Both the position numbers and the translations under genes were made by a program. From the NCBI RefSeq assembly GCF_900091495.1, contig NZ_LT607413.1, forward strand, positions 4,603,001 to 4,667,000: a stretch of 64,000 nt of DNA, given 5' to 3'. This document shows, one piece after another, positions 1 to 55,537 of this stretch; position 1 is the stretch's first letter; every line of letters begins with the position of its first letter. Below the pieces are notes generated by a model. It worked only from the letters and a program-made list of their open reading frames with translations. It was not told where the DNA came from and ran no database searches. Origin of the DNA: Micromonospora echinospora. Its GTDB lineage: Bacteria; Actinomycetota; Actinomycetes; Mycobacteriales; Micromonosporaceae.

Positions 1-3000
1 CCACGTGCCAGGCGACGGCGTGGAAGGCCGGGCGGTGCGGTACCAGCACCCCCTTCGGGCGACCGGTGGAGCCGGAGGTGTAGACGCACCAGGCGAGGTG
101 GTCCGGCCCGGACCCGGCGGGCGGGTCGGAACCGGCCGGCGGGCGGGGCGCTTCCGCGTCCCCGGCCCCGACCGCGGCGACGTCGACCTCCTCGACCAGC
201 AGTCGGGGCGGGGCCACCGGACGGTCGAGCGCGGTGAAGGTGACCACCAGCCGGGCACTGCTGTCGGCGAGGAGGGCGGCCAGCCGGGCGGGCGGCAGGT
301 CGGGGTCGAGCGGCAGGAAGGCCGCTCCGGCGAGCAGCACCCCGAGCTGCGCCGCGACCAGTTCCGGCCGCCGGGGCAACAGCACCGCGACCAGGTCGTC
401 CGCCCCGATGCCCGCGGCGGTGACCTCCCGGGCCAGCGCCTCGGCCCACACCCGCAGCTCCCGGTACGTCCAGCGGGCCGCGCCACCGACCACCGCCGGC
501 GCGTCCGGCGTCCGACCGGCCTGCCAGAGGACCAGGTCGTGCAGTCGGTCGGCGGTCTGCGCAATGTCCCGCCCGGCGTGCACCTCGACGGTCTCGGACA
601 GCCGGGACAGCGGGACGTCCGGTTCCCTGGTCAGCCGGTCGAGCAGCCGGACCCAGTGGTCGAGCAGCCTGCGGACGGTCACCGGATCGAACACCTCGGT
701 GCGGTACTCGACGTGGCAGCGGACGGTGTCGGTGTGCGACAGGTAGACCATGAGGTCGACCGGTGCCTTGTCCAGTCCCACCGGCAGCGGTTCGGCGGTC
801 ACGCCGGGCAGGTCGAAGGCGAACGCACCGCCGGTCTCGTACTCGACGACGACGTCGAACAGCGGGTGCCGGCCGGCCTCCCGGTGCGGGGCGAGCGCCC
901 GGACCAGGGCGTCGAACGGCACGGCGGCGTGCTCGTAGGCGTCGGCGGCGGCGGCCCGGACGCGGGTGAGGACCTCGCGGAAGGTCGGGTCGCCGGTGAG
1001 GTCCAGCCGCAACGGCAGGGTGTCGACGAAGAAGCCGACCAGGTCAGCGGTGCGCTCGTCCCGGCCGTTGAACCCGGTGCCGACCACCAGGTCCGGCTGC
1101 CCGCTGAACCGGAACAGCATGACGCCGAAGGCGCTGAGGAGGGTGGTGAACGGGGTGACCCGCTCGGCCCCGCTGAACCGGCGGATCCGGACGGCCAGCT
1201 CGGCCGGGACCTCGGTGAAGACGCTCCGGCCGGCCGGTGAGGGCAGGGCCGGACGGGTCAGGTCGGAGGGGAGGACGAGGGTGGGCGGCGGCGGATCGAA
1301 CCGGGCCAGCCAGTACCGCAGGTCCGCCTCGTCGACGGCGGTAGCCCGCCCGGCAGCGGTCCGGGCCAGCTCCGGATAGTCGACCGGCAGGGCGGCCAGC
1401 TCCGGCGCGGTGCCGGCCAGCCGGGCCCGGTAGGCGACCGAGACCTCCCGGGTGAGGACGGCGTACGAGCCACCGTCGGTGGACAGGTGGTGGAACGCCA
1501 GCACCAGCACGTGGTGGTCGGCGGAGAGCCGCAGCAGCGTGAACGCGAACACGGGGCCCTCGGCCAGGTCGAAGACCCGTCGGCTCTCCCCGGCCATCGT
1601 CTCCGCGACGGCCGGCTCCTCGGCCCGTCCGGTCAGGTCCCGTACCGGCAGCTCCACCGGCACCACCGGCCGGACGACCTGGCACGGCTCGCCGTCGACC
1701 TCGCGGTAAGTGGTGCGCAGTGGGGCGTGCCGGGCCACCACGTCACCGAGCGCGCCGCGCAGCGCCGCCACGTCCAGCGGGCCGCGCAGTCGCACCGCCA
1801 CCGCCTCGGTGTACGCCGGCGTGCCGGGGTGGAGCTGCTCGACCAGCCACAGCCGGCGCTGTCCGGGCGTCAGCGGCGCGATCTCCTTCCGGCCTGCCTG
1901 CCGGGTGCGGCGGCGCGGGCCGGTCTCCTCCCGGCCCGGCTGCCTGGTCCGGCGTGACGTGGCCCGCCGCAGCGCGTCGATGAAGGGCAGGCCGGCGCGG
2001 ACGGCGGGGGCGGGCAGGCCGAAGTCCACGAAACAGGCGATCTCGTCGGCGCCCGCGTCGAGCACCGCGTCCAGCACGCCACGGCAGCTCTCCGGGGTGC
2101 CGATCAGCGCCCGCTGCTCGCAGTACCGCCGGTACGCCCGGGACAGCACGAACCGGACGTCCTCGTCCGGGGTGTCGGCCAGGTCGATGCTCATCCCGAG
2201 GCTGTTCACCACCTGCCCGAGCAGGCTGAACGACGACCGCAGGTACGCGCAGAACGGGTCGAACGCCGCCTCGCGCACCCGGTCGAGGTCGTCGCCGAGG
2301 TACGTGTGCAGCAGCACCACCACCCGACCGGCGGCCGGGTCGAGGCCGTGCTCGGCGCGGGTCCGCCGGTACAGGGCGATGTTCTCGGCGAGCTGGGCGA
2401 CGTCCTGGGTCATCAGGTTCGTCACCACCCCGACGTCGCGCCGGGCGGCCTCCCGGTAGCTGTCCGGGTTGCCGACGATCGCGGTGAAGAACGGCGGGGC
2501 GTCCTGCACCGGCCGGGGGAAGAGCCGGACGTCGACCGGGTCGCCGCTGCCGGACGTGGCGCTGACCGCGTCGCCCCGCCAGAGCCGGCGCACCGTCTCC
2601 AGGTGCTCGTACATCACCTGCTTGTGCCGGCCGAAGTTCTCCGGCTGGAAGACGAAGTCGTTGGCGTGCCAGCCGGGGGCACAGCCGAGCCCGACCCGGC
2701 CGCCGGAGAGGTTGTCCACCATGGACCACTCCTCGGCCACCCGGACCGGGTGGTGCAGGGGCAGCACCACCGAGCCGGCGTTCAGCCGGATCCGTTCGGT
2801 CCGGACGGCGAGCGCGGCGGCGAGCACCGACGGGTTCGGGAAGTTGCCGCCGAAGGAGTGGAAGTGCCGCTCCGGGAACCAGACGGCGTGGAACCCGTGG
2901 GTGTCGGCGTACTGCGCGGCGTCGAGGATCAGGCCGTACCGGTCGTCGGCGCGCTGGTCGGGGTAGTCCCCGAAGAAGTACAGGCTGACGTCGACGGTCT

Positions 3001-6000
3001 CCCCGGTCTCCCCGGTCTCCCCGGTCTCCCCGGCCCCGACCTCGTCCGTCCCGATCCCCCCGGGCCCGGCCGCCTGCGTGGAGGCACCCGGGTCAACCGG
3101 GCCTGCCGCTACCGCCCGGGCCGGGGTCGTCCGGGCCGGGCCCTCGGCGGTCACCGCCGTCGGGGTGGTCGCCCCTGCCGCGCCGAGCAGGGCGAGTTGC
3201 TGCTGCATCAGGTCGAGCTGGCGGTGGATGATCGCGCTCAGGTCGCTTCCCGCCACCACTCCCTCGACCGCTCCGCCGCCCATCGCCCGTTCCGGCCGCG
3301 CGCCACCCCGTTGATCCACTCCAGATGCGGTGACCGGGGGTGTCCCGGGCCCTTCGACAGCCCGACCTGCCGCATCTCGCGGCGCAGCCGACGACGTCGC
3401 CGGTGCCGGCGACGGGGCATCTCCGGGCAGGGATCGGCCGGAGCCGGCGATGATCCGCTCGGCGAGTCGACGCGGGGTGTCGACGTCCTCGAAGAGCTCC
3501 CGGATCGGCACCCGGACCCCGTAGGCCTGGTCGATCTCCCGGGACATGCTGATCAGCAGCAGGGAGTCCGCCCCGAGGGAGAAGAAGGTCTCGTCGGGGC
3601 CGACCGCCGCGACCTCCAGCCCCAGCTTGCTGGCGGTCAACGCGCGGACCCGGTCCAGCACCGCGCCGTCGACCGCCGCGTCGCCGTCGGCGTCGGCGGG
3701 GGCTGCCTGGCTGGCCGGGACGGGCAGGGGGGCCGGGACGGCGTTCGCCGGTGCGGTGGGGTCGGGTGCGGGGCCCTGTGGAGCTGCCCGCACCGGCGGG
3801 GCAGCACCATCAGCCGAAGCCGAAGCCGAAGCCGAAGCCGGAGCCGAGGTCGAAGCCGAGGTCGAAGCCGAAGCCGAAGCCGGGACCGGAACCGGGTCGG
3901 CGTCGATCCAGTACCGGCGGCGCTGGAACGGGTACCCGGGCAACGACACCCGGCGTCCGGCGCAGCCCTCGGTGATCGCCACCCAGTCGACCGGAGCGCC
4001 CGCGCAGTACAGCTCCGCCACGGCCTGCCACACCCCGTCGACCGGGTCGAGGCCGCGTCGCTGGGACGGGATCCAGGTCGCCGTCGACCGGGTCGTCCGG
4101 GCCAGTCGGGTGAGCGCGGCCTCCGGTCCCGCCTCGACGAACGTCCGGCAGTCCCGGTCGACGGCCGTCCGGACGGCGGCGTGGAACTCGACGGTCCCAC
4201 GCGCCTGCCGGTACAGGTGCTCGGCGTCGGGCCGCCAGCCCGGCTCGCGGACCCGACCGTCGACGGTGCTGACCACCGGGACCCGGACCGGCCGCAGGTC
4301 CACCCGCGCGGCCAACTCCCGCAGGCGGTCCCGCAGCGGCTCGATCGCCGCGCAGTGGAAGGCCCGGGTCACCGGCAACCGCCGGGTCGACAGTCCGAGC
4401 CGGGCGGCCCGGGCGGCGACGGTGGCGACCGCGTCGGGTGACCCGGCCAGGACGTGTCGTTCCGGTCCGTTCACCACGGCGACCTCCACCGGAGTGCCGG
4501 TGACCAGGTCGTCGACGACCGTCCGTTCGGCGAGCACCGCCAGCATCGCGCCCGGCTCCAGCTCGTCGTGCATGAGCCGGCCACGCCAGGCGGCGAGGCG
4601 TACCGCGTCGGCGAACGGGAGCGCGCCGGCCACGGCCAGGGCGGTGTACTCGCCGACGCTGTGGCCGAGCACGTAGTCGGGGGTGACCCCCCAGGAGCGC
4701 CACAGCTCGGCGAGGGCCAGTCCGACGACGACCAGCACCGGCTGGGCCAGGTCGGTGGCGGGCCCGGCGGGGTCGGGAGCGTCCCGCAGCCGGGCGAGGA
4801 GGTCACCGCCGACCGCGTCCCGGTACGCCGACGCGGCCTCGGCCAGGACGTCCCCTACCACCGGGAAGTGCTCCGCGAGCGGCAGCAGCACCGGACGGAG
4901 GTCGCCCTGTCCGGGGAAGGCCAGCACGATCGGCCCGGCGGCGGCCGTGCCGGTGACCACGGTGTCCGAGGCGGCGGTGCCGGCGACGAACCGGTCCAGT
5001 GCCGAGGCGAGGGCGGCGGGGGAGCCGCCCCGCGCGACGAGTCGGTGCCGCAGGTGCCGGCGACCCCGTCCCGTGGTGGTCACCAGGTCCGCCAGGGCCA
5101 GGTCGGGGTGGGCGTGGAGGTGGTCCCGGTGGCGGGTGGCGAGCGCGATGAGGGCGGCCGGGTCGTTCGCCGAGAGCGGCAGCAGGCCGGGAGCGGTGGC
5201 CTGCGGGCGGACGGTGCCCAGCGGGACGGCATCGGTCGGAGCGACGGCTGCGACACCGGCGGCCGACGCAGTGGTGGACGGGGCGACGACCGGCTCGGGC
5301 GGCTGCTCGACGATGACGTGGGCGTTGGTGCCGCCGACGCCGAGGGCGCTCACCGCCGCCCGGCGTGGGGTGCCGGACCCGGACCACCCGACGCCGGTGG
5401 TGGTGACGGTGAACGGGGCCAGGTCGACCGCCGGCCGGGTGAAGTTGATCTGCGGGGGGATCCGGCCGGTCCGGACCGCCAGTACCGCCTTGACCAGCCC
5501 GGCCATGCCGGCGCAGCTGTCCAGGTGACCGATGTTCGCCTTGACCGAGCCGAGGAACGGCCGGGCCGACGCGTACGCCTCGGCGAGGGCGTGGTGTTCC
5601 ACCGGGTCGCCGAGGGCGGTGCCGGTGCCGTGTGCCTCGACGTACCCGATCGACGCGGCGGGCACGGCGGCGTCCCGCAGCGCCTGCCGGATCACCTCGA
5701 CCTGCCCGGTCACGCTCGGCGCGGTGAAGCCGACCTTGCCCGCGCCGTCGTTGTTCACCGCCGAGCCGAGGATCACCGCGTACACCGGGTCGCCGTCGGC
5801 GACGGCGCGGGCGTACGGCTTGAGCACCACCGCCGCGACCCCGTTGCCGCCGACCGTGCCGTCGGCGGCGGCGTCGAAGGGGCGGCACCGGCCCTGCGCG
5901 GAGAGGATCGAGCCGGGGGTGTGCCGGTAGCCGGTGACCTGGGGGACGTGCACGGCGACGGCGCCGGCCACCGCCAGGTCGGCGTCCCCGGTGAGCAGCG

Positions 6001-8653
6001 CGCGGGCGGCCAGGTGTACCGCGACCAGGGAGGTGGAGCAGGCGGTCTGCACGGTGACCGCCGGCCCGGTCAGCCCCAGCCGGTACGCGACCCGGGTGGC
6101 CAGGAAGTCCGGCTGGTTGCCCAGTGCCGCGCCGATCGTCGTGGCTGGGTCGTCGACCCGGGTGGCCGCGTCGAGGTTGTTCCGCAGGTAGGTGTGGTGG
6201 GTGTAGAGGTTCATCCCGCCACCGGCGAAGAGCCCGACCCGGGCCCGGTCGCCGGCACCGGCGTACCCGGCGTCCTCCAGGGCGTGCTGACAGGTCTCCA
6301 GGAAGAGCCGGTGCTGCGGGTCGAGCAGTTCGGCCTCCCGGGCACTGATGCCGAAGAAGCCCGCGTCGAAGCCGGTGACGTCGTCGAGGACGCCGCTGGC
6401 CGCGACGAATCCGGGGGCGTCCGCGTCCGGCACGCGCGCGCCGGCCAGCTCCTCGGGGGTGAAGAAGCGGACGCTCTCCACCCCGGCGAGGAGGTTCGAC
6501 CAGAACTCGTCGACGTCGGCGGCACCGGGGAAGCGGCCCGCCATGCCGATGACGGCGATCCGGTGGTCCCGGTCCACCGGTGCGGGGCCGGTGGCGTCGG
6601 CCGGGGCGGTGTCGGTGAGGTGCCGGACGAGCGCGTCGACGGTCGGGTGCGCGAAGAACGCCGGGGGCGGGACCGACCGGCCGAGGGCCTGTTCGAGCAG
6701 GGCCCGGAGCCGGACGATCTCCACCGAGCCGATGCCGAGCTCCCAGAGCGGCCGGTCGGTGTCGACCGGGCCGCCGAGCAGGTCACCGAGTGCGTCCAGG
6801 ACCGCTCGGCGCACCGCCGCCCGGGAGGGCGGGGCACCTGCGTGCCCGTCCGACGGGGAAACGGCCGGGGAAACGGCCGGGACGGGGAAGGACGGCGTGT
6901 CGGCGGCCGGGACCGGGCGGCGGTCGGCGTCGAAGTCGCCGGAGGTGAGGCGGCGGCGCAGCGCGGCCCGCTGGATCTTCCCGCCGGTGGTGCGGGGGAA
7001 CTCCGCTTCGGGCACCGCGACGACCCGGGCCGGCGCGATGCCCCAGCGTCGGGCCACCGCGGCGGTGACGTCCCGGGCCACCTCCGACGCCGGCCGGCCC
7101 GCGTCGGGGTCGGGCACGTGGAACAGGACCAGCGACTCGGTTCCGGTACGGGGATCGGGCACACCGCAGGCGGCGACCAGCCCGGCGGCGACGCCGGACA
7201 CCTCCCCGGCGACCTGCTCGACCTCGTGGCAGGGCAGGTTGTGCCCGTTGATGATGATCAGGTCCTTCTCCCGGCCGGTGACGGTGATCCGGCCGTCCAC
7301 CATGTACGCCAGGTCGCCGGTGTCCCACCAGCCGCCGGGGCGCTGGGCGGCGCGGGTCGCCTCCGGGTCGCCGAGGTAGCCGGGGGTGATCCGGGGCGAA
7401 CGGACCTGGAGCCGTCCGATCCGCCCCTCGGGCAGCACCTCGTCGTCCCGGCCGACGATCCGCAGGGCGGCACCGGGGGCGGGCGCGCCGACGGAGAGGA
7501 ACTCGACGCAGTCGGCGGGATCCTCGTCGGCGGTGGCCCACTCCAGGTCGCCGTCGAGGCTGGCGGCGCGGACCCGCTGCCGGCAGCCCGGCTCGCCGAG
7601 GGACGCGAAGGTGATCGCGGTGCAGGTCTCGGACATCCCCCAGGCCGGGGTCATCGCGGCGGCCGGCACGCCGGTCGCCGCCTCGAAGGCGTCGAAGGTC
7701 TCCGGCCGGCACTGCTCGCCGCCGCTGACCATCCGCCGTACGTGCCGCAGCTCCCACCGGGGGCCCGGATCGCGGGCCACCGCGTCGGCCACCAGCCGGA
7801 GTCCGAAGTTCGGCGCCCAGCTGTGGGTGACCCGGTGCCGGCGCATCAGTTCCAGCCAGCGCAGCGGGTCGGCCAGCACCCGGTCGGTGTCGACGTGGAC
7901 GCTGGTCGCGCCGAGGAACACCCCGGCGAGGTGGTAGAGGAGCAGCCCGGCGACGTGGTCCACCGGGAGCCAGTTGAGCAGCACGTCACCGGGGCGGATG
8001 TCGAGCATCTCCCGCGCGCCCACGGCGTACTGGGACAGACCGAGGTGGGTCAGCGGGATGATCTTCGGGGTGCCGGTGCTGCCGGAGGAGAGTTGCAGCA
8101 CCGCCACCTCCTCCGGCCCGGCGTGGTGGTCGGTGTCCGGCCCGGGCCGCTGACCGTCGGCCAGTTCGGCCACGGTGACCACCCGCCCGCCGAACGGGAG
8201 ATGACGCAGTCCGACCGCGTCGGCCGCCCCGGCGACGACGACCGGTTCCCCGAGTGTTCGCCAGGCGTGCCGGAGCGCGTCGAGCGCCGGGGAGTCCCCG
8301 GCGTGGCCGGGCCCGGCGGCGGTGGTCAGCGGCACCACCCCGGCCAGCACGCAACCGAAGAACGCCGGCCAGTACTCGACGGACGCGGCGACCCGCAGGA
8401 TCGCGTACCCGCCGGGGTCCACGTTCCGGGCCCGCAGGCCGTCGCGGACCGCGCGGGCCCGGTCGAGCAGGTCGGGGTGGGCCAGGAAGTCGGTGTCGCC
8501 GTCGGTGGCGACCAGGTGGAGGCCGGCCTCGGGGAACCGTTCCGCCGCGCGGGTGAGCGCCTCGCCCAGGGTCCGGGGGTGCTTCGGGTCGTCGGGCAGC
8601 TCGGCACCGTGGCTGACGGCGGGACGACGGCCGGACGGGCGGGGAACGGTCAC
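1..8653 (-). CDS. Hybrid PKS-NRPS megasynthase (AL-ACP-KS-AT-ACP-LLM-C-A...), 3' end outside the window
   Basis: One uninterrupted minus-strand frame, about 2,884 codons, leaves the window inside an adenylation domain. It starts at a GTG that overlaps the stop of the upstream MFS gene (GTGA). Domains by residue: acyl-AMP ligase about 30-575 (SSGSTGTPK near 187, GREKDLIIINGHNL, TTGGKIQRAALRRR); ACP1 with Ser643 in LGIGS; ketosynthase about 693-1120 with Cys872 (QTACSTSL), His1008 (EAHGTGT) and His1043 (NIGH); acyltransferase with Ser1332 (GHSVGE) and an AFH motif, suggesting malonyl-CoA; ACP2 with Ser1697 (LGADSL); luciferase-like flavin monooxygenase about 1888-2225 (SLYFFGDY); condensation domain with HHLSTDG at 2388-2394; adenylation domain from about 2700 (YTSGSTGRPKGV near 2860). 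The inferred chemistry is activation of a carboxylic acid, one malonyl extension, hydroxylation of the carrier-bound chain and amide formation with an amino acid. No KR, DH or aminotransferase domain is seen. The product is unknown. Confidence 0.93.
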   Translation of the reverse strand, partial: MTVPRPSGRRPAVSHGAELPDDPKHPRTLGEALTRAAERFPEAGLHLVATDGDTDFLAHPDLLDRARAVRDGLRARNVDPGGYAILRVAASVEYWPAFFGCVLAGVVPLTTAAGPGHAGDSPALDALRHAWRTLGEPVVVAGAADAVGLRHLPFGGRVVTVAELADGQRPGPDTDHHAGPEEVAVLQLSSGSTGTPKIIPLTHLGLSQYAVGAREMLDIRPGDVLLNWLPVDHVAGLLLYHLAGVFLGATSVHVDTDRVLADPLRWLELMRRHRVTHSWAPNFGLRLVADAVARDPGPRWELRHVRRMVSGGEQCRPETFDAFEAATGVPAAAMTPAWGMSETCTAITFASLGEPGCRQRVRAASLDGDLEWATADEDPADCVEFLSVGAPAPGAALRIVGRDDEVLPEGRIGRLQVRSPRITPGYLGDPEATRAAQRPGGWWDTGDLAYMVDGRITVTGREKDLIIINGHNLPCHEVEQVAGEVSGVAAGLVAACGVPDPRTGTESLVLFHVPDPDAGRPASEVARDVTAAVARRWGIAPARVVAVPEAEFPRTTGGKIQRAALRRRLTSGDFDADRRPVPAADTPSFPVPAVSPAVSPSDGHAGAPPSRAAVRRAVLDALGDLLGGPVDTDRPLWELGIGSVEIVRLRALLEQALGRSVPPPAFFAHPTVDALVRHLTDTAPADATGPAPVDRDHRIAVIGMAGRFPGAADVDEFWSNLLAGVESVRFFTPEELAGARVPDADAPGFVAASGVLDDVTGFDAGFFGISAREAELLDPQHRLFLETCQHALEDAGYAGAGDRARVGLFAGGGMNLYTHHTYLRNNLDAATRVDDPATTIGAALGNQPDFLATRVAYRLGLTGPAVTVQTACSTSLVAVHLAARALLTGDADLAVAGAVAVHVPQVTGYRHTPGSILSAQGRCRPFDAAADGTVGGNGVAAVVLKPYARAVADGDPVYAVILGSAVNNDGAGKVGFTAPSVTGQVEVIRQALRDAAVPAASIGYVEAHGTGTALGDPVEHHALAEAYASARPFLGSVKANIGHLDSCAGMAGLVKAVLAVRTGRIPPQINFTRPAVDLAPFTVTTTGVGWSGSGTPRRAAVSALGVGGTNAHVIVEQPPEPVVAPSTTASAAGVAAVAPTDAVPLGTVRPQATAPGLLPLSANDPAALIALATRHRDHLHAHPDLALADLVTTTGRGRRHLRHRLVARGGSPAALASALDRFVAGTAASDTVVTGTAAAGPIVLAFPGQGDLRPVLLPLAEHFPVVGDVLAEAASAYRDAVGGDLLARLRDAPDPAGPATDLAQPVLVVVGLALAELWRSWGVTPDYVLGHSVGEYTALAVAGALPFADAVRLAAWRGRLMHDELEPGAMLAVLAERTVVDDLVTGTPVEVAVVNGPERHVLAGSPDAVATVAARAARLGLSTRRLPVTRAFHCAAIEPLRDRLRELAARVDLRPVRVPVVSTVDGRVREPGWRPDAEHLYRQARGTVEFHAAVRTAVDRDCRTFVEAGPEAALTRLARTTRSTATWIPSQRRGLDPVDGVWQAVAELYCAGAPVDWVAITEGCAGRRVSLPGYPFQRRRYWIDADPVPVPASASASTSASTSAPASASASASADGAAPPVRAAPQGPAPDPTAPANAVPAPLPVPASQAAPADADGDAAVDGAVLDRVRALTASKLGLEVAAVGPDETFFSLGADSLLLISMSREIDQAYGVRVPIRELFEDVDTPRRLAERIIAGSGRSLPGDAPSPAPATSSAAPRDAAGRAVEGPGTPPVTASGVDQRGGARPERAMGGGAVEGVVAGSDLSAIIHRQLDLMQQQLALLGAAGATTPTAVTAEGPARTTPARAVAAGPVDPGASTQAAGPGGIGTDEVGAGETGETGETGETVDVSLYFFGDYPDQRADDRYGLILDAAQYADTHGFHAVWFPERHFHSFGGNFPNPSVLAAALAVRTERIRLNAGSVVLPLHHPVRVAEEWSMVDNLSGGRVGLGCAPGWHANDFVFQPENFGRHKQVMYEHLETVRRLWRGDAVSATSGSGDPVDVRLFPRPVQDAPPFFTAIVGNPDSYREAARRDVGVVTNLMTQDVAQLAENIALYRRTRAEHGLDPAAGRVVVLLHTYLGDDLDRVREAAFDPFCAYLRSSFSLLGQVVNSLGMSIDLADTPDEDVRFVLSRAYRRYCEQRALIGTPESCRGVLDAVLDAGADEIACFVDFGLPAPAVRAGLPFIDALRRATSRRTRQPGREETGPRRRTRQAGRKEIAPLTPGQRRLWLVEQLHPGTPAYTEAVAVRLRGPLDVAALRGALGDVVARHAPLRTTYREVDGEPCQVVRPVVPVELPVRDLTGRAEEPAVAETMAGESRRVFDLAEGPVFAFTLLRLSADHHVLVLAFHHLSTDGGSYAVLTREVSVAYRARLAGTAPELAALPVDYPELARTAAGRATAVDEADLRYWLARFDPPPPTLVLPSDLTRPALPSPAGRSVFTEVPAELAVRIRRFSGAERVTPFTTLLSAFGVMLFRFSGQPDLVVGTGFNGRDERTADLVGFFVDTLPLRLDLTGDPTFREVLTRVRAAAADAYEHAAVPFDALVRALAPHREAGRHPLFDVVVEYETGGAFAFDLPGVTAEPLPVGLDKAPVDLMVYLSHTDTVRCHVEYRTEVFDPVTVRRLLDHWVRLLDRLTREPDVPLSRLSETVEVHAGRDIAQTADRLHDLVLWQAGRTPDAPAVVGGAARWTYRELRVWAEALAREVTAAGIGADDLVAVLLPRRPELVAAQLGVLLAGAAFLPLDPDLPPARLAALLADSSARLVVTFTALDRPVAPPRLLVEEVDVAAVGAGDAEAPRPPAGSDPPAGSGPDHLAWCVYTSGSTGRPKGVLVPHRPAFHAVAWHV
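2996..3037 (-). repeat. 9-bp repeat coding a (Gly-Glu-Thr)n linker
   Basis: About four copies of the 9-mer ggtctcccc encode GETGETGETGET immediately before the luciferase-like monooxygenase domain. The unit is a multiple of three, so copy-number change would not break the frame. Confidence 0.9.
3805..3893 (-). repeat. Hexanucleotide repeat coding a Ser-Ala/Ser-Thr linker in the megasynthase
   Basis: The plus strand reads repeated agccga/ggtcga hexamers. In the synthase frame they encode an interdomain linker of alternating Ala-Ser and Thr-Ser dipeptides between the AT and ACP2. The repeat keeps the frame. Confidence 0.9.
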
Positions 8654-9909
8654 GGGGCTACCTCGGCAGGTTGACGGCGTGCTGCGGTCCGGAGGCGGAC
8701 GTGGGCCACGAGGAAGACGAGCGCGACGGCCAGGGCCAGCCCGTGGGCGGCCCCGACGACCGGCAGCGGCGGGAACCGGTCCAGCAGCGCGGCACAGACG
8801 ATCATGCCGAGCCCGAAACCGGCGTTCTGCGCCGCGCTGGCGAAGCCGAACAGGCGGGGCCGCAGGTCGGCGTCGACCGCCTGGAGGCGGGTGGTGTAGC
8901 TGATCTCGGCGTAGCCGTCGGCCGCGCCGGCGGCCAGGGTCACCGGGACCAGCAGCCAGACCGGCAGGCCGGTGAAGGCGAGCACGAAACAGACCGACAT
9001 CAGGCAGGTGGCGACGCCGAAGGGCAGTTCCGTGGGGCCTCGCCCCGAGCGTTTCGCCCGCCGGGCGGCCCAGCGGCCGGCGAGCAGGCTGCCCGCCGCC
9101 CAGGCGGTGGTGAAGGTGGCGGCGAACGTGGCGGGGGAGTCGGGGCGGACCAGGGTCGCGTACACCGGCAGGCCGACGTTGTGCGAGGCGGAGCCGAACG
9201 CGTCGGCGGCGCGTACCGCGATCATCGCCGGCACCACCGGGGCGACGGCCCGCAGCAGGCCGAACCGGCCGGGCGCGCGCCCGGCGACGGTGGTTCGCCC
9301 GGTGGTGGGGGCAGGGCGGTCGGCGGCGGGGGTGCGCCGGGCCACCGGGAGCAGGAGCAGGGCGGAGAGCAGGTACGTGGCGGCGTCGACCAGGAACGCC
9401 ACGTGGTAGCCGAGCCACCCCACCAGCACGCCCGCCGAGGCGAACCCGAGCAGCATCCCCACCGAGCGCAGCGTGACCACCAGGCCGTTGGCCCGGGTCA
9501 ACCGGTCCGCGCCGACCATGGTGGGCAGGTGCGCGCGCATCGCCACGCCCCAGAGCGTCTGGCCGGCGCCGAGCGCGACCGCGAGTCCGTACAGCACGGG
9601 GGTCCGGGCCCCGGCGGGGACCGTGACGAGCAGGACGAGCATGCCGGCCGCGAGCAGGTCGGCGCCGATCATCAGGTACGGGCGACGGTGGCGGGCGGCG
9701 AGCCGGCCGGCGACCGGCCCGGTGAGGAACCCGGCGGCCAGGCGGACGGCCATGAAGACGCCGGTCTGCACCGGGGAGCCGGTCAGGTGCAGCACGAACA
9801 GGCCCAGCGCCACCAGGTTCAGGAAGCTGCCGAAGGTCGACACGGCGTGTGCGGTGGCCACCAGCCGAAGATCGCCCCACGACTGGTCCGCCCCTGCTGG
9901 CCCGCCCAA
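8650..9909 (-). CDS. MFS transporter, probable exporter of the PKS-NRPS product
   Basis: A major facilitator superfamily protein of about 419 residues with roughly twelve hydrophobic segments. It starts with an N-terminal helix near FGSFLNLVALGLFVLHL and has the basic loop between helices 2 and 3 (GPVAGRLAARHRRPYL). The family (EntS/MFS_3-like) exports siderophores or antibiotics. Its stop codon overlaps the GTG start of the megasynthase by four bases, so the two are likely translationally coupled and the export role is inferred. I place the start at TTG 9909 because GGGGGGAAG sits just upstream. An ATG at 9963 in the same frame would add 18 residues that do not look like MFS sequence. Confidence 0.85.
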   Translation of the reverse strand: MGGPAGADQSWGDLRLVATAHAVSTFGSFLNLVALGLFVLHLTGSPVQTGVFMAVRLAAGFLTGPVAGRLAARHRRPYLMIGADLLAAGMLVLLVTVPAGARTPVLYGLAVALGAGQTLWGVAMRAHLPTMVGADRLTRANGLVVTLRSVGMLLGFASAGVLVGWLGYHVAFLVDAATYLLSALLLLPVARRTPAADRPAPTTGRTTVAGRAPGRFGLLRAVAPVVPAMIAVRAADAFGSASHNVGLPVYATLVRPDSPATFAATFTTAWAAGSLLAGRWAARRAKRSGRGPTELPFGVATCLMSVCFVLAFTGLPVWLLVPVTLAAGAADGYAEISYTTRLQAVDADLRPRLFGFASAAQNAGFGLGMIVCAALLDRFPPLPVVGAAHGLALAVALVFLVAHVRLRTAARRQPAEVAP

Positions 9910-38962: not shown

Positions 38963-40813
38963 ATGGGCAACGAGCAGGTGGCCACGCCGACCGGGGACGC
39001 CCGCGCCGACTGGGAGGCCCGGATCGGGCTGCGCCGCCACGGCGGCAGTGGCCGGGATCAGCTTCCGCCGCCGACCGGGCTGCGCGCGGCCGGCGGACGG
39101 GGACAGGTGACCCTCGACTGGGAGCCGGTGCCCGGGGCGGTCGGCTATCTGGTCCACCGGGCGGACCGGCCGGACGGGCCGTACCTTCCCCTGGACCACC
39201 AGGGCGGCGACGTGCTGGCGGTGCCGCACCCGCCGTACGCGGACACCACCGGCGAGCCGGGCCGCACCTACCACTACGCGGTCGCCACGCTGGCCGACGT
39301 GGACGTGTGCGGGGAACCGGGGGGCGGTGTCGCCGCGGCGTCGACGCCCGACGGCCCGGCCGCCGTCCGGGTCGCCGTCGACGCCGCCGGCACCGACGGA
39401 CCGGTGCACCGCCCGTGGCGACGCATGATCGGCGCCGAGCGCCTCAGCCACCTGCTCTGCGCCGACACCACGGGCGGGCGGCCGATCGGCGCGGAGTTCA
39501 CCGAGGCACTGTCGATCATGCGCCGGGAGCTGGGCGTCGAGACGGTCCGCGCGCACGCCATCCTGCACGACGACGTCGGGGTCTACCGGGAGGTCGACGG
39601 CCGGCCGGTGTACGACTTCTCCCGCGTCGACGAGATCTACGACACCCTGCTCGGCCTCGGCCTGCGTCCGGTCGTGGAACTCTCCTTCATGCCGGCCGAC
39701 CTGGCCCGGGATCCGGACCGGACGGTCTTCGCGTTCAACGCGATCATCTCCCCGCCTCGGGACTGGGACCGCTGGGCGGACCTGGTCCGGGCCCTCGTCG
39801 CGCACCTGGTCGACCGGTACGGGCTGGCCGAGGTCCGCCGCTGGGAGTTCGAGGTGTGGAACGAGGCGAACCTGGAGGTGTTCTGGACCGGCACCCGGGA
39901 GGAGTACCTGCGGCTGTACGAGGTGTCCGCCCGCGCCGTCCGGGACGTCGACGCGGCGTTGCGGGTCGGCGGCCCCGGGTCGGCCGCCGCCGCGTGGAAC
40001 GGGGCGCTGCTGGACCACGTCGCCCGCACCGGCGCCCCGATCGACTTCCTCTCCACCCACACCTACGGCAGCCCGCCACTGGACCTGCGCCCGCTCTGCG
40101 AGGCCGCCGGTCGGCCCGACCTGGAACTGCTCTGGACCGAGTGGGGCATCACCCCCACCCACTTCAACCCGGTCACCGACGGGGTGTTCGCCGCCGCCTT
40201 CCTGCTGCGTGGCATGCGGTCCGCCGCCGGTCGGATCGAGGCGCTGGCGTACTGGGTGGCCTCCGACCACTTCGAGGAGCTGGGCCGGCCGCCCCGGCTG
40301 TTCCACGGCGGGTTCGGCCTGCTGACCGTCGGCAACCTCCGCAAGCCCCGGTTCTGGGCGCTGGCCGCGCTCGCCCGGCTCGGCGACGACCAGTTGCCGG
40401 TGACCGTCGACGGCGACGGGGCGGGTTCCCTGGTCGAGACGTGGGCGGCCCGGCACGCCGACGGCCGGGTGCACGTCCTGGTCTGGAACGGCACGCTGGA
40501 CCAGTCCAAGGCCGGCGGGGCGCCGGCGCTGGAGCGGGACGTGCGGGTCGACGTCGCTGGACTCGCCGACCGGCCGTACCGGGTGACGCACTGGCGGGTC
40601 GACGCCACGCACTCCAACATCGAGGAGGTCTGGGCGCGGCACGGCGGCGGGGACTGGCCCGACGACGCCCAGTGGTCGCTGCTGCGGGCGGCCGACACCC
40701 TCGACCGGTACGAACCGGACACCGAGGCACGTCCGGCGGACGGTGTCCTCGGCTGGGCCTTTCCGCTGCCCATGCCGGGCTTCTCCCTGCTGGAACTCGT
40801 GCCGCTCGACTGA
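38963..40813 (+). CDS. GH39-like glycoside hydrolase with N-terminal fibronectin type III domain
   Basis: 616 residues without signal peptide, so cytoplasmic. Residues about 40-130 form an FN3-like domain (LPPPTGLRAAGGRGQVTLDW, TYHYAVATL). The TIM-barrel catalytic part follows, with acid/base Glu301 in FEVWNEAN and nucleophile Glu393 in LLWTEWG, the GH39 (beta-xylosidase/alpha-L-iduronidase clan A) pattern. A beta-sandwich C-terminal region carries THSNIEEVW. It likely removes monosaccharides from the imported oligosaccharide. ATG 38963 follows GAGGACGAGG. Exact sugar unknown. Confidence 0.83.
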   Translation: MGNEQVATPTGDARADWEARIGLRRHGGSGRDQLPPPTGLRAAGGRGQVTLDWEPVPGAVGYLVHRADRPDGPYLPLDHQGGDVLAVPHPPYADTTGEPGRTYHYAVATLADVDVCGEPGGGVAAASTPDGPAAVRVAVDAAGTDGPVHRPWRRMIGAERLSHLLCADTTGGRPIGAEFTEALSIMRRELGVETVRAHAILHDDVGVYREVDGRPVYDFSRVDEIYDTLLGLGLRPVVELSFMPADLARDPDRTVFAFNAIISPPRDWDRWADLVRALVAHLVDRYGLAEVRRWEFEVWNEANLEVFWTGTREEYLRLYEVSARAVRDVDAALRVGGPGSAAAAWNGALLDHVARTGAPIDFLSTHTYGSPPLDLRPLCEAAGRPDLELLWTEWGITPTHFNPVTDGVFAAAFLLRGMRSAAGRIEALAYWVASDHFEELGRPPRLFHGGFGLLTVGNLRKPRFWALAALARLGDDQLPVTVDGDGAGSLVETWAARHADGRVHVLVWNGTLDQSKAGGAPALERDVRVDVAGLADRPYRVTHWRVDATHSNIEEVWARHGGGDWPDDAQWSLLRAADTLDRYEPDTEARPADGVLGWAFPLPMPGFSLLELVPLD

Positions 40814-40968
40814 GCCGCACGGCGACCGCCGCCGGGCCGGGGCGCCCGCCGCCTCCGGCCCGGCGGCGGCCCGGGGCGGGTCGGCCCGGGGAAGCACCGT
40901 GACCAGGTCGGACCCGCCCGGGCACCGTAGCCTGGACCCGGAAGACCTCGACGACGCGGAGTGGTGGG

Positions 40969-42006
40969 GTGACGAGACCGGACAACGAGGCGGTCGGCCG
41001 GGCGGACGGTCCGCACCGCCGCCGTCCCACCGTCTACCAGGTGGCGGAACTGGCGGGAGTGTCGATCGCCACGGTCTCCCGGGCCCTGCGCGCCGACGAG
41101 CCGGTGGCGCCGGAGACCCGGCGACGGGTGCTGGCCGCCGCGCGAACCCTGAACTGGTGGCCGAGCCGGGCCGCGCAGACCCTGGCCGGTGAGAAGCACG
41201 ACGCGGTGGCGATCATCATGCCCGACCTCGCCGGCCCCTACTACGCCCAGGTCGTCGCCGGCTTCGAGTCGGAAGTGGTCGGGCGGGACAGCGTCGTCAT
41301 GGTGATGGCCACCCACGGGCGGGCCGCCTCCGAGCGGCTGGCGCGCGATCTCGCGTCCCGGATCGACGGGCTGGTCGTGATGGGCGAGAGCGTCCCGGAG
41401 CCGACCCTCCACGAGATGGTCGCGCAGGTGCCGGTGGTCCTGCTGGCCCGCCCGGCGCTGCCCGCCGTCACCACCGTGGTCTGCGAGAACGTCCAGGCGG
41501 CGGAGACCCTGACCCGGCACCTGTTCGACCACGGACGGCGTCGGCTGCGCTTCGTCGGCGACCCGGAGGGCACCCCGGACGTGCGGGAACGGTGGACCGG
41601 GTTCGTCCGGGCGCACACCGACGCGGGCGTGCCGCTGCTCGCCGGCCCTGCCGAATGCGAGCGCCTGGAGGCGGAGAGCGGCTACCGGGCGGGGCTGGAG
41701 ATCCTCCGCGACCCGGAGGTGGACGCGGTGTTCTGCGCCAACGACGAACTCGCCTCCGGGGTGTACCGGGCCGCCGCCGAGGTCGGCCGGACCGTGCCCG
41801 GGGACCTCGCGGTCACCGGCTGGGACGACGTGACCCTCGCCGCCCACCTGTCGCCGCGCCTGACCACGGTGCGTCAGCCGATGCGGGAGCTCGGGGCCGC
41901 CGCCGCGCGGCTGCTCTTCGACCAGATCGGTGGTGCCCGCACACCGCCCACGGTGCAGCTCGACACGGAGGTGGTGATCCGGGCCAGCTGCGGTTGCCAC
42001 GGCTGA
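40969..42006 (+). CDS. LacI-family transcriptional repressor
   Basis: 345 residues. The N-terminal HTH has TVYQVAELAGVSIATVSRAL and the hinge region SRAAQTLAGEK. The periplasmic-binding-like sensor contains AIIMPDLAGPYYAQVVAGFE, the domain signature VFCANDELASGVYRAAAEVG and VTGWDDVTLAAHLSPRLTTV. It ends the locus on the same strand, 155 bases after the GH39-like gene, and probably represses the operon at the TGTAAGCGCTTTCA palindrome with the incoming sugar as inducer. GTG 40969 lacks a strong ribosome site; a leaderless or weak start is possible. Confidence 0.88.
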   Translation: MTRPDNEAVGRADGPHRRRPTVYQVAELAGVSIATVSRALRADEPVAPETRRRVLAAARTLNWWPSRAAQTLAGEKHDAVAIIMPDLAGPYYAQVVAGFESEVVGRDSVVMVMATHGRAASERLARDLASRIDGLVVMGESVPEPTLHEMVAQVPVVLLARPALPAVTTVVCENVQAAETLTRHLFDHGRRRLRFVGDPEGTPDVRERWTGFVRAHTDAGVPLLAGPAECERLEAESGYRAGLEILRDPEVDAVFCANDELASGVYRAAAEVGRTVPGDLAVTGWDDVTLAAHLSPRLTTVRQPMRELGAAAARLLFDQIGGARTPPTVQLDTEVVIRASCGCHG

Positions 42007-42054
42007 CCGGGAACCGCTGACGGCCGGGCCGACCCGCGTTGACGGGAGGTCGGC

Positions 42055-42864
42055 TCAGACGTCGGTGGTGAAGCGCTCCAGCACCGAGGGGGCGACCAGG
42101 CCGATGGCGGCGAGGACGGAGACCACGGTGAGCACCGAGCGGACCACCACGATCTCGGTCTTGCCGCCGGCCCGCAGCGCGATGCTGTTCGGCAGGCCGA
42201 TCGGCGTCCACATCCGGCGTTTGATCGGGATGGGCCAGAGGATCGGCACCCCGGCCTTGGTGACCATGTCGCCGATGATGTGCACGAAGCAGCCCACCCC
42301 CATGGCCAACCCGATCATCGGGTAGCCCCGGTCGCCGGGCAGGTTCGCGAAGGTGTACCAGGCGCCGGCGGCCGAGGCCAGCGTGACGATCACCCAGCCG
42401 GCCCGTTCCGCCCAGCGGTCGAAGAGGCCGCGCAACGCCAGGCCGATCATGAAGAACAGGATGCCGACCACGGCCCACTTGCCGTACGCGGTGCAGAGCG
42501 CGGTGGTGCCCCAGCCGACCAGCACGGTGAACGGGATGGTGTGGGTCAGCGTCCGGTGCCCGTTGTTGCGTTTCGGGTCGCGGCTGAGCTTGGTGGCGTA
42601 GTAGACGCCGAGCGACACCTTCTCGATCACCTCGGCCACGAAGAGCGAGAAGACGCCGAAGGTGCGGGCGACGGTGGCCCCGCCCTGGTTGCGGGTCACC
42701 TTGCCGGAGAGGTCGAGGTCGGGGAAGAGCGCGCCGCCCGCGCAGACCGCCGTGCCGACGGCGAGCGCCAGGGTGGACTGTTCGTAGTCGGCGAAGTGTT
42801 CCAGCGCCAACGACCCGGTCAGCCACACCGCCGCGCCGGAGAGCGCGTGCGACGGTCCCATCAT
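42055..42864 (-). CDS. YdjM/DUF457-like membrane-bound metal-dependent hydrolase family protein
   Basis: About 269 residues with several membrane helices. Family motifs are MMGPSHALSGAAVW at the N-terminus, GGALFPDLDLSGKVTRN (conserved Asp pair) and the histidines of NGHRTLTHTIPF, plus GCFVHIIGDMVTKAG. Members are annotated as metal-dependent hydrolases, often DNA-damage regulated in E. coli; the reaction is not known. ATG 42864 is preferred because GGGGAGG directly abuts the upstream ATG 42873. Convergent with the LacI gene. Confidence 0.83.
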   Translation of the reverse strand: MMGPSHALSGAAVWLTGSLALEHFADYEQSTLALAVGTAVCAGGALFPDLDLSGKVTRNQGGATVARTFGVFSLFVAEVIEKVSLGVYYATKLSRDPKRNNGHRTLTHTIPFTVLVGWGTTALCTAYGKWAVVGILFFMIGLALRGLFDRWAERAGWVIVTLASAAGAWYTFANLPGDRGYPMIGLAMGVGCFVHIIGDMVTKAGVPILWPIPIKRRMWTPIGLPNSIALRAGGKTEIVVVRSVLTVVSVLAAIGLVAPSVLERFTTDV

Positions 42865-42984
42865 GTCGGTCATCCTCCCCCGGAGATCGTGATCGACAAG
42901 TTACGGCACCGGGGCGACATCCTGGCTGTCGGGTTCTCGTCCGTCGGCAGTGGAACCGCGCGTTCCGGCCGTGGCCCGGGGGAG

Positions 42985-43105
42985 GCCGCGGCCGGAACAG
43001 GTCCGTCACCGCCGGACGGTTCCGGCTGCCCGCCCAGCGGGGCGGGAAGCTTCCGGCTGCCCGGTCAGCGCGGCGGCTTTCTCGGCTATCCGGTCAGCGC
43101 GGCGG
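42985..43105. repeat. Degenerate direct repeats downstream of the sugar dehydrogenase gene
   Basis: The stretch holds repeated ggtcagcgcggcgg and ttccggctgcccg elements in tandem. The last copy enters the 3' end of the PQQ-type dehydrogenase gene. No gene is seen in the 230-base gap. Confidence 0.6.
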
Positions 43106-44191
43106 GAAGCGCAGGACCCGGTCGTCGGTCGCCGCCGGGGAGCCGCGCCCGTCGCGGTTGCTGGTGGTGACCCAGAGGTACCCGTCCGGCCCGTACTCCA
43201 CCGTGCGCAGCCGGCCGTACGTGCCGACCAACTCGGCCACCGGCGTGCCCGCGCCGCCGGACGTGGTCAGCGGTACGTTCCACAGCCGGGTCCCGCGCAG
43301 CGCGGCCACGTAGAGCCGGTTGCCGACGACCGCCGCGCCGCTCGGGGACGCCTGCGAGGTCGACCAGACCACCAGCGGGTCACGGAACCGGGAGTCGTTG
43401 GCCCGGCCCTCGACGATCGGCCAGCCGTAGTTGCCGCCACGCACGATGACGTTGACTTCGTCCCAGGAGTTCTGTCCGAACTCGGTGGCGAGCAACCGGC
43501 CCTGGGCGTCCCAGGTCAGGCCCTGCACGTTGCGGTGACCGAGGCTGTAGACCAGGGAGCCGGCGAACGGGTTGTCCGTCGGGACCGTTCCGTCCGGACG
43601 CATTCGCAGGATCTTGCCGTTGCGGCTCTGGAGGTTCTGCGAGGTGGACGTCTGCCCCGCGTCGCCGACCCCGGCGTAGAGCATCCCGTCCGGACCGAAG
43701 GCGATCCGGCCGCCGTTGTGGATGCTGGCCTTGGCGAGTCCGGTGAGGATCGGCTGCTGGGTCTGTGGCGTGCTGAGGCGGAAGCGGGCGATCCGGTTGT
43801 CGGTCGAGGTGGTGAAGTAGACGTAGACGTAGCCGTCCTGGGCGTGCGTGGGGGAGACCGCCAGGCCGAGCAGCCCGCCCTCGCCGCCGGGAGCGACCCC
43901 GGCGATCTGGGTCACCGGCGTGGGCGCCTGACCGGGGCGCACCCGGACCACCTGGCCGGAGTTCCGCTGCGCGACCAGGGCGGAGCCGTCGGGGAGGAAG
44001 TCCATCCCCCACGGCACGGTCAGGTTGCTGGCGACCACCTGCGGTCGCGTGAAGTCGAAGTCACCGAGGGCCTCGACCGTGGCGCTCGGACGCGGCGCCT
44101 GCTGGGCCGGGTCGGCGAGCGCGGCGGCCCCGCCCCCGGTCAGCGCGACACCCATCGTCGTCGCTGCCACGATCATCAACCGGACTCTCAC
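43094..44191 (-). CDS. Secreted PQQ-type sugar (glucose/sorbosone) dehydrogenase-like protein
   Basis: About 365 residues. A signal peptide (RVRLMIVAATTMGVALTGGG) precedes a six-bladed beta-propeller of the GSDH family: VPWGMDFLPDGSALVAQRNS, GEGGLLGLAVSP, HNGGRIAFGPDGMLYAGVGD, GHRNVQGLTWD, GQNSWDEVNVI and NYGWP. These are the conserved metal/PQQ-site blocks. It would oxidise aldoses outside the cell with PQQ or a related cofactor. The start is uncertain: GTG 44191 gives the best signal peptide; ATG 44206 or 44239 are possible. TAGAAT lies upstream, so the transcript may have almost no leader. Confidence 0.82.
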   Translation of the reverse strand: MRVRLMIVAATTMGVALTGGGAAALADPAQQAPRPSATVEALGDFDFTRPQVVASNLTVPWGMDFLPDGSALVAQRNSGQVVRVRPGQAPTPVTQIAGVAPGGEGGLLGLAVSPTHAQDGYVYVYFTTSTDNRIARFRLSTPQTQQPILTGLAKASIHNGGRIAFGPDGMLYAGVGDAGQTSTSQNLQSRNGKILRMRPDGTVPTDNPFAGSLVYSLGHRNVQGLTWDAQGRLLATEFGQNSWDEVNVIVRGGNYGWPIVEGRANDSRFRDPLVVWSTSQASPSGAAVVGNRLYVAALRGTRLWNVPLTTSGGAGTPVAELVGTYGRLRTVEYGPDGYLWVTTSNRDGRGSPAATDDRVLRFPPR

Positions 44192-44256
44192 GACAAACAC
44201 CACCATTCTATCAGCGATTGCCGTCAATATATATCGCAACGAGTGATCAAATCGAT

Positions 44257-44274
44257 ACGGAAAGCGCTATCCGT
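44257..44274. promoter_or_regulatory. LacI-type 18-bp palindrome between the sugar dehydrogenase and the subtilase
   Basis: ACGGAAAGC/GCTATCCGT has one mismatch per half-site and the AGCGCT centre shared with the operator at 34156. It lies in the divergent gap, 66 bases before the dehydrogenase start and 99 before the subtilase start. Confidence 0.65.
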
Positions 44275-44372
44275 TGGTGGCCTGGCCTCGAATACCATCG
44301 CTGATGGTCGATGTCTCTGGAGCCTGCGGGACAACGGGGACCGCGACGGGGGATCGACCGGGAAGGCAGCAG

Positions 44373-45710
44373 ATGCGAACCCCACATGTCACCCCGCGCC
44401 GGCGCGGCGCCCCACGTCGCCTCGGTGCCGTCGCGCTGGCCGTCGCGGTCGGCACGGCGTCGCTGGTCGGTGCCGGCGCGCCGGCGGCGGCCGAGCCGGC
44501 GACCATCCTCGGAGCCGGCGCGCCGACCGCGATCCCGGGCAGCTACATCGTGGTGCTCAAGGACAGCGTCACGCTCCGGGACACCGGCATCCTGACCCGC
44601 GACGGCCGGGTGCCGCGCGGCACCATGTCCCCGTCGGCCCGCGCGGCGGCCCGGGACGCGGTGGACCGGGCGGCGGAGACCCTGGCCGACCGGCACGGTG
44701 CGACCGTGGGCCACCGGTACAGTGCCGCGCTGCGCGGCTTCACCATCCGGGCCAGCGAGACGGTGGCCCGGCGCATCGCCGCCGAGGAGTCGGTGGCCTT
44801 CGTGGAGCAGAACCGCCGCACCCGGCTGGACGACGACCGCACCGCGCCGGTGACGACGCTGGGCACCCAGCCGAACCCGCCGTCGTGGGGGCTGGACCGG
44901 GTCGACCAGACCAGCCTGCCGCTGGACAACTCGTTCAGCTACCCGTCCTCGGGCGGCCAGGGCGTGCACGCGTACGTCATCGACTCCGGCATCCGCCTCA
45001 CCCACCAGGACTTCGGCACCCGCGTCGTCAACGGCATCGACGTGGTGGACGGCGGCACCGCCGACGACTGCTACGGGCACGGCAGCCACGTCGCCGGCAC
45101 GCTGGGCGGCACGACGTACGGGGTGGCCAAAAGCGTCACCCTGGTCGCCGTACGCGTCTGGGCATGCGACGCCACCGGCGACATCGCCACCACCACCCAG
45201 GCGATCGACTGGGTCACCGCGAACGCGCAGCAGCCCGCCGTGGCGAACATGAGCTTCGGCAACTCGACCACGCTCAACCCCGGCGCGTACGAGGCCGCCA
45301 CCACCGGGCTGATCAACTCGGGCGTGACCGTGGTCGCGTCCGCCGGCAACGACGGCGGCGACGCCTGCGTCAAGACCCCCGCGTTCATTCCGGCGGTGCT
45401 CACCGTCGGCTCCACCTGGCCGGACGACGGGGCGGCCTGGCTCAGCAACCACGGCCCCTGCGTGGACCTGTTCGCGCCCGGCCAGAGCATCGTCTCCGCC
45501 GGCCACACCACCGACACCGCCTGGACGACGAAGACCGGCACCTCGATGGCCGCGCCGCACGTGGCCGGCGCCGCCGCATTGATCCTCGCCGCGAATCCGA
45601 CCTGGACCCCGGCACAGGTGCACGCCCAGGTGATCGCCGACTCCACCTCCGGCGTCGTCTTCAACACCCGACCCGACACGACCAGCCGGATGCTGTACGT
45701 GCCCTCCTGA
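44373..45710 (+). CDS. Secreted subtilisin-like serine protease (S8, proteinase K type)
   Basis: 445 residues: signal peptide ending near AAAEPA, an inhibitor-I9 propeptide (GSYIVVLKDS to FVEQNRRT) and an S8 catalytic domain. The triad is Asp204 (AYVIDSGI), His236 (CYGHGSHVAG) and Ser391 (TGTSMAAPHVAG), with the oxyanion Asn in SAGNDGGD. It is autoprocessed and active outside the cell. GGGAAGG precedes ATG 44373. The gene ends cleanly, 67 bases before the left end of the IS256-family element. Confidence 0.92.
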   Translation: MRTPHVTPRRRGAPRRLGAVALAVAVGTASLVGAGAPAAAEPATILGAGAPTAIPGSYIVVLKDSVTLRDTGILTRDGRVPRGTMSPSARAAARDAVDRAAETLADRHGATVGHRYSAALRGFTIRASETVARRIAAEESVAFVEQNRRTRLDDDRTAPVTTLGTQPNPPSWGLDRVDQTSLPLDNSFSYPSSGGQGVHAYVIDSGIRLTHQDFGTRVVNGIDVVDGGTADDCYGHGSHVAGTLGGTTYGVAKSVTLVAVRVWACDATGDIATTTQAIDWVTANAQQPAVANMSFGNSTTLNPGAYEAATTGLINSGVTVVASAGNDGGDACVKTPAFIPAVLTVGSTWPDDGAAWLSNHGPCVDLFAPGQSIVSAGHTTDTAWTTKTGTSMAAPHVAGAAALILAANPTWTPAQVHAQVIADSTSGVVFNTRPDTTSRMLYVPS

Positions 45711-45777
45711 ACCCGGCGGCCGTTCCGCCGGTCCCGGACCTCCGAACAGGACCCACCGCGCCCGGGTCTGTGGATCT

Positions 45778-48193: not shown

Positions 48194-48220
48194 ATGCCGA
48201 CGTCGGGGGAGGTGCGTGGC

Positions 48221-48787: not shown

Positions 48788-48830
48788 GCTGATTGTGGTG
48801 ATCTGCTGACGTGGCGCGCGAGTGGGAGGC

Positions 48831-49337: not shown

Positions 49338-49354
49338 CCCGTCGGCCGTGGTAG

Positions 49355-50671: not shown

Positions 50672-50812
50672 GCGGCCCCCTGGAGTTGTCCCCTGCGCGC
50701 GGCGACGGCCTCCGCTGTCCGGATTCCCGTCGCCGCGCCCTGGTCGGGGCCAATCCTGCCGCCGGCTCGATAACCGGCGGCGACGTCACCGTTGCGGCTC
50801 TGTAAAGCGGGC

Positions 50813-52756: not shown

Positions 52757-52834
52757 CTTTCCTCCAGCAACGACGTGCAACACGCCACGACGACGGTGGG
52801 TACGGTGGTCAAGTGACCGCGCGGCGTCGAAGAT

Positions 52835-55507: not shown

Positions 55508-55537
55508 GGCGGTTGCGGGGTGGCGTGGGTGGTGGTT

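Follow-up and report, generated by a model that had tools for sequence, protein, structure and literature searches.

We analysed a stretch of 64,000 nucleotides, referred to below as the window, that covers positions 4603001-4667000 of the 7.78 Mb single-contig genome of Micromonospora echinospora. Its left edge carries a two-gene locus composed of a large assembly-line synthase gene on the minus strand and, directly upstream, a gene encoding an exporter-type protein of the major facilitator superfamily (MFS). The synthase has 3738 residues and runs from a GTG start at position 8653, as picked by a home-made gene caller, to position -2563, beyond the left end of the window. Residues 1-2884 are inside the window; residues 2885-3738, which hold the remainder of the second adenylation (A) domain, a peptidyl carrier protein (PCP) and a terminal condensation (C) domain, are outside it, to the left. 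The full layout is loading A, acyl carrier protein (ACP), ketosynthase (KS), acyltransferase (AT), ACP, luciferase-like flavin monooxygenase (LLM), C, A, PCP and C. This layout is conserved among relatives and paired with the exporter gene, and the same genome encodes a paralogue that has in addition a ketoreductase (KR) and an aminotransferase (AMT). The features of the locus are as follows, in window positions.

1..8653, minus strand: 5' part of the synthase gene, residues 1-2884 of 3738 (gene calling, domain scan)
6956..8533, minus strand: loading adenylation domain, residues 41-566, nearest to the keto-acid/McyG type
6584..6853, minus strand: first carrier domain (ACP1), residues 601-690, Ser643 (Pfam, alignment)
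5309..6565, minus strand: ketosynthase, residues 697-1115, Cys872/His1008/His1043 (Pfam, alignment)
3974..4933, minus strand: acyltransferase, residues 1241-1560, GHSVG with Ser1332, AFH motif (Pfam, motif)
3434..3667, minus strand: second carrier domain (ACP2), residues 1663-1740, Ser1697 (Pfam, alignment)
2996..3433, minus strand: linker between ACP2 and LLM, low-complexity sequence and a QLDLMQQQLALLG segment; site of the class-III aminotransferase in AMT-containing relatives
1964..2995, minus strand: LLM domain, residues 1887-2230 (TIGR04020)
584..1888, minus strand: first condensation domain, residues 2256-2690, HHLSTDG (Pfam, motif)
1..553, minus strand: 5' part of the amino-acid adenylation domain (whole: residues 2701-3205), pocket code DAAFVGAIVK (Pfam)
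8650..9843, minus strand: gene for an exporter-type MFS protein, immediately upstream and overlapping the start of the synthase gene (gene calling, Pfam)

Pfam (E<=0.01) found AMP-binding, PP-binding, KS, AT, luciferase-like, Condensation (two stretches in the protein) and AMP-binding domains in this order, and gave no aminotransferase, KR or thioesterase match in the synthase. Together with an NCBIfam scan (best 25 of 156 families), this bears out the order from ligase to second A domain, lacking AMT and KR, that a first-pass annotation had read from the letters alone. The residues that it named (Ser643, Cys872, His1008, His1043, Ser1332, Ser1697 and HHLSTDG at 2388) are present at those numbers. 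In a 12-sequence alignment of the synthase with its relatives, these residues are invariant at their catalytic positions, as is that of the PCP, except Ser643, which is kept in at least 90% (one relative, L054, does not have that part). We read the AFH motif of the AT as malonyl-type. Overall the interpretation given at first pass is partly supported; it did not extend to the last part of the second A domain, to the PCP and terminal C domain, or to the pairing with an exporter.

The synthase belongs to a recurring family. An LLM above the TIGR04020 cut-off was found in 34 of 201 genomes (200 relatives and the genome itself). We compared 20 relative loci from those genomes and one locus on a Streptomyces aurantiacus plasmid; 11 align colinearly with nearly all of the window protein, and of these L054 lacks the loading part. 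Identity is 61-66% for six of the 11 and 42-45% for the other five. A scan of a genome collection yielded 407 LLM relatives. Of these 407 we retained the 80 most similar to the query, a choice that biases the proportions given below towards near relatives, and the reference domains were searched in all frames. When a KS and an LLM were required together in a single frame of more than 8 kb, 68 entries lacked an AMT and 12 had one, and removal of five duplicates from the AMT-less set left 63 AMT-less and 12 AMT-containing synthases; partial contigs and AMT-containing systems split over two frames are not counted here. The layout is not unique: it occurs exactly, in a single frame, at 57 of the 63 AMT-less loci. 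The exceptions are L103 and L115 (AT not found), L123 and L056 (first ACP not found), and L054 and L131 (frame without a loading domain; that of L131 lies in an overlapping one). At L103 and L115 (Streptomyces zhaozhouensis and S. sedi) the AT query gave nothing between KS and ACP2, and their AT is perhaps divergent or trans-acting. The family is found in Micromonospora, Streptomyces, Kribbella, Saccharothrix, Amycolatopsis, Actinosynnema, Longispora, Actinoplanes and Catellatospora.

Catalytic motifs are widely kept among the 63 AMT-less synthases: EAHGTGT (63), TACS[ST]S (55) and the second His (55) of the KS, G-x-D-S of ACP2 (63), GHSxG (59) and AFH (57) of the AT, GG[HDN]S of the PCP (62) and the ACP1 pattern (28). 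The misses in KS and ACP1 reflect narrow patterns, because alignments keep the KS Cys and second His in 75 of 75 rows (63 AMT-less and 12 AMT-containing) and the ACP1 Ser wherever that domain is present (68 rows).

The pairing with the exporter is also recurrent. The GTG start of the synthase overlaps the stop codon of the MFS gene (GTGA). Among AMT-less loci that have a loading domain and leave 1.5 kb or more of sequence upstream, 57 of 61, the window's own included, carry an MFS homologue immediately before the synthase in the same orientation. The same holds for three of the four AMT-containing loci with enough sequence, including the paralogue. Across the flanks examined (median 4.5 and 5.5 kb), the MFS gene is the sole common family; the next most frequent is found at 20 loci, on mixed sides and in mixed orientation.

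The paralogue lies near 6.53 Mb (G000:C1, about 6522635-6539165, L012-L014), in the order MFS, loading A, KR, KS, AT, ACP, class-III AMT, LLM, C, A, PCP and terminal C. Its plan is that of the window pair plus a KR after the loading A domain and an AMT before the LLM. Identity to the window pair is 49% for the MFS protein, 45% for loading A, 63% for KS and 67% for LLM. The loading region with its KR scores 392 bits to 6ULW over 992 residues, and the terminal C of the paralogue matches beyond the end of the main frame. A recent change of AMT state can be seen elsewhere in the family: AMT-less L054 and AMT-containing L053, from the same genus, are almost letter-for-letter identical in the LLM-side linker and are sisters both in the LLM tree and in the KS+C tree, with L054 inside the AMT-containing group. 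One recent loss of the AMT, in L054, is therefore well supported by sequence and phylogeny. The synthase of L054 (13699-17400) starts at the KS with no loading module, and a separate adenylating enzyme is encoded upstream of its MFS gene, where other frames look acyl-CoA-dehydrogenase-like by sequence. Deeper history is less consistent. The LLM tree demands several changes of AMT state (AMT-less 7, AMT-containing 5; 12 of 99 rows unclassed) and places the window's clade beside AMT-containing proteins (support 95/73, not starred), whereas two changes suffice in the KS+C tree (quick method, no bootstrap). As the trees disagree on the deep split, we do not retain a single origin of the AMT-less state.

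We lean towards a reading in which exporter and one-protein assembly line form a two-gene locus making a hydroxylated beta-keto acyl amino-acid product. Sequence and fold suggest that ACP1 is loaded by the N-terminal A domain, which would adenylate a carboxylic acid other than an amino acid; alpha-keto, alpha-hydroxy and aryl acids are candidates. With KS, AT and ACP intact, one malonyl extension would give a beta-ketoacyl-ACP2 that no domain of the synthase is predicted to reduce or aminate. By analogy with LLMs of the PuwE type, the LLM would hydroxylate the alpha carbon to give 2-hydroxy-3-oxoacyl-ACP, and the first C domain would couple this chain to one amino acid picked by the A domain. 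Since no thioesterase was found, release is assigned to the terminal C domain, which could pass the product to a free amine or let a nucleophile within the product itself, an oxygen or a carbon, attack. Export would fall to the MFS protein.

The nature of the starter unit hinges on the loading domain. Its nearest solved relatives are the keto-acid A domain of StsA (6ULW/6ULX) and the A domain of McyG (4R0M), and it is less close to fatty-acyl ligases. The ligase label of the first-pass annotation was right as to class; loading domains of this kind readily invite a more specific fatty-acyl label. Aligned to the StsA keto-acid reference positions (from an excerpt of PMC11253843), the domain has Val at I306 (the Asp235 position) and Gly-Met, instead of Gly-Pro, at G414-M415. 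This is the combination of a hydrophobic residue for Asp235 with Gly-Met that marks A domains of the StsA type, although the KR that accompanies it in the same initiation module is absent from the window's synthase (Pfam, E<=0.01). The two features do not single out keto acids, because McyG has both; Gly-Met is invariant in 31 loading domains. The residue at the Asp235 position tracks the presence or absence of a KR: Val in 10 of 10 KR-containing rows; Val (5), Ser (4) or Ile (1) within the window's clade; and Ser in 51 of 51 for the KR-less rows of other clades. We consider priming with a fatty acid by a fatty-acyl-AMP ligase, a type for which the bulky trio W224/M231/F279 of EcFAAL serves as a marker, somewhat unlikely; it would lead to a lipopeptide-like N-acyl amino acid.

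The LLM domain scores 467.5 bits against TIGR04020 (cut-off 244.45) over model positions 1-341 of 341, so that the comparison with this family proposed at first pass comes out above the curated cut-off and over the full model length. It is nearest to the PuwE monooxygenase, with a PuwE-like fold, and its nearest named relatives are from Micromonospora species. For the TIGR04020 LLM of the palmerolide pathway, alpha-hydroxylation has been proposed (PMC8739492, in excerpt). The genome as a whole has 33 matches to Bac_luciferase and three TIGR04020 LLMs above the cut-off, one of these a 452-aa frame at 6888795. In Micromonospora inaquosa (L047, 13347-19998) a second, free-standing LLM (351-aa frame) and more nonribosomal peptide synthetase (NRPS) and polyketide synthase (PKS) frames lie beside the synthase.

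For the condensation steps, the terminal C domain carries HHLNGDG at 3431, and an HHxxxDG motif after the last PCP with no thioesterase match is the layout expected for release by a terminal C domain. The motif is kept in 59 of 63 AMT-less synthases. In the first C domain, HHxxxDG is found in 12 of the 63, namely the window's clade (window 1472-1492 here), and L054 and the AMT-containing proteins have HHxxxD[S/T]. Within the family, this motif is thus canonical only in the window's clade.

Several observations weigh against the proposed pathway. The Ser that most KR-less relatives carry at the Asp235 position, in place of a hydrophobic residue, hints that members of the family may not all use the same class of starter. 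Similarly, the condensation step may not work alike in all members, since the first C domain in the Streptomyces-rich clade reads HHxxxD[S/A] instead of HHxxxDG. The terminal C motif is changed in four synthases of the alignment (NHxxxDA in L109 and L119, SHxxxDG in L102, HHxxxDA in L110), and the MFS gene is not found at L055, L125, L135 and L143 (4 of 61). We gave up naming the amino acid from pocket codes, as neither DAAFVGAIVK of the window's clade nor DVQFFAQ[VI]IK, the commonest code in the Streptomyces-rich clade, matches an assignable one. Genome-wide, 22 matches to Aminotran_3, 29 to Aminotran_1_2 and 92 to KR would allow these activities to come from elsewhere. Finally, the LLMs of the calyculin and mandelalide pathways are reported to shorten the chain through Baeyer-Villiger-type steps (PMC8739492, in excerpt). 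If the LLM of the window's synthase did the same to its beta-ketoacyl substrate, whether directly or following alpha-hydroxylation, the outcome would be an ester or a shortened chain; we regard this as unlikely.

Another reading keeps a microginin-like 3-amino-2-hydroxyacyl peptide as the product, with AMT (and KR) supplied in trans. Besides the matches of both aminotransferase classes and of the KR family just listed, it can draw on the AMT inside the paralogue, on seven more matches to it in the same genome at 34-41% identity and on a family like short-chain dehydrogenases/reductases that flanks five entries, though not the window. An AMT hidden within the synthase itself, in the linker at residues 1735-1888, is ruled out by the lack of any Pfam aminotransferase match there at E<=0.01; the first-pass annotation had named such a domain as what would overturn it. 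The gap between ACP2 and LLM measures 196 residues, in line with 140-243 in 12 AMT-less proteins, and reaches 732-825 in three AMT-containing ones. Nor does the neighbourhood offer a candidate: a genome search found no Aminotran_3 or Aminotran_1_2 match within -40000..64000 of the window, a region that takes in sequence to the left, where a search for trans-acting genes had been suggested at first pass, and a single KR-family match about 34 kb left (4569020-4569472). That match is set among genes that look enoyl-reductase-like and ferrochelatase-like by sequence, and we take it to be housekeeping. The Pfam scan covered ten of the genes called in this interval. No AMT or KR gene is conserved among the common flanking families (flanks of about 4-5 kb), and in six close-clade genomes (G006, G011, G028, G094, G107 and G113) no match to the AMT of the paralogue exceeds 40% identity (best matches, E<=1e-20); G036 has one of 42%, within another large frame. 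Because flanks, neighbourhood and close-clade genomes gave no close AMT, dedicated trans amination is not supported, and we judge this reading distinctly improbable.

That the synthase is a decayed, functionless copy of an AMT-containing one is scarcely credible: the L054 case, inside the AMT-containing clade beside L053, does exhibit AMT loss directly, but the frame is open over 3738 codons with its catalytic motifs kept, the design recurs in many genera, and every pairwise dN/dS value is below 1 (0.21-0.54 for the terminal C domain), with the LLM lowest of seven domains in five of six pairs (two of which share L066). Purifying selection on a largely conserved LLM and terminal C domain argues against a broken microginin synthase.

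The reading that we prefer, a hydroxylated beta-keto acyl amino-acid product from a two-gene locus, can be extended tentatively to a widespread class of actinobacterial metabolites. Its members might combine a non-amino starter, malonate and an amino acid in a 2-hydroxy-3-oxoacyl amide, which the terminal C domain would release, perhaps by closing a ring, and the lineage might switch between oxygen and nitrogen at C3 through KR and AMT cassettes, with both forms in one genome. AMT-less synthase and exporter represent an overlooked, recurring family and not a one-off oddity. The pathway is compact and lends itself to direct testing, with just two genes to transfer into a Streptomyces laboratory strain and a product that mass spectrometry could detect. 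The paralogue pair provides a natural experiment on what the LLM does when its substrate retains the beta-keto group, and informs how assembly lines gain and lose cassettes.

Other features surround the family's loci. In the window, a sulfotransferase gene (PF00685, 12629-13390) lies four genes from the synthase and is not a common flanking family, and a predicted protein of 449 aa (13704-15053) matches no Pfam family (E 0.01). The synthase is followed immediately by a 109-aa frame (L009 17094-17423; window -2906 to -2577) that resembles by eye the end of a methyltransferase and has no Pfam match. Rfam at gathering thresholds gave no match in the window. On the S. aurantiacus plasmid (NZ_CP114282.1, L045 11266-13340), genes for a phosphoenolpyruvate (PEP) mutase and a phosphonopyruvate decarboxylase precede the MFS-synthase pair, with an aminotransferase and transketolase halves further upstream. 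A phosphonate amine made by these aepX/aepY genes was rejected as the release partner: the eight neighbour proteins are unmatched in other loci except for a 35% aepY match in L051. In M. echinospora itself, the two matches to the PEP-mutase family each lie several hundred kb from the locus.

None of the titles or abstract openings that our searches of the open PMC library brought up describes this two-gene family (the library leaves most subscription journals outside), but its parts have known counterparts. Calyculin CalD and mandelalide MndB, likened here by description only, also have an LLM in a PKS setting, with the chain-shortening role mentioned above (PMC8739492, in excerpt). The loading domain shares with StsA (6ULW/6ULX) and McyG (4R0M) a residue other than Asp at the amine-binding position and Gly-Met where amino-acid A domains have Gly-Pro; in the A-KR-T module of StsA a KR follows the A domain, and the window's loading domain is without one. 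The microginin-type order noted at first pass holds for a non-reducing KS-AT-ACP followed by monooxygenase and C-A, and fails for the class-III aminotransferase. The synthase would work much as the opening half of a microginin/puwainaphycin line does, yet it is not a member, because the defining aminotransferase was looked for and is absent. In the puwainaphycin system, as far as the excerpt of PMC4219810 goes, PuwE likewise has a PKS module without reductive domains, then a monooxygenase of the same flavin-dependent family and then an NRPS module, and the formation of a 3-amino-2-hydroxy acyl unit was assigned by its authors from sequence. There, an aminotransferase precedes the monooxygenase, ligase and ACP are separate proteins, and more NRPS proteins and a thioesterase follow; the window's synthase, in contrast, is one protein with no AMT, incorporates a single amino acid by our reading, and ends in a terminal C domain.
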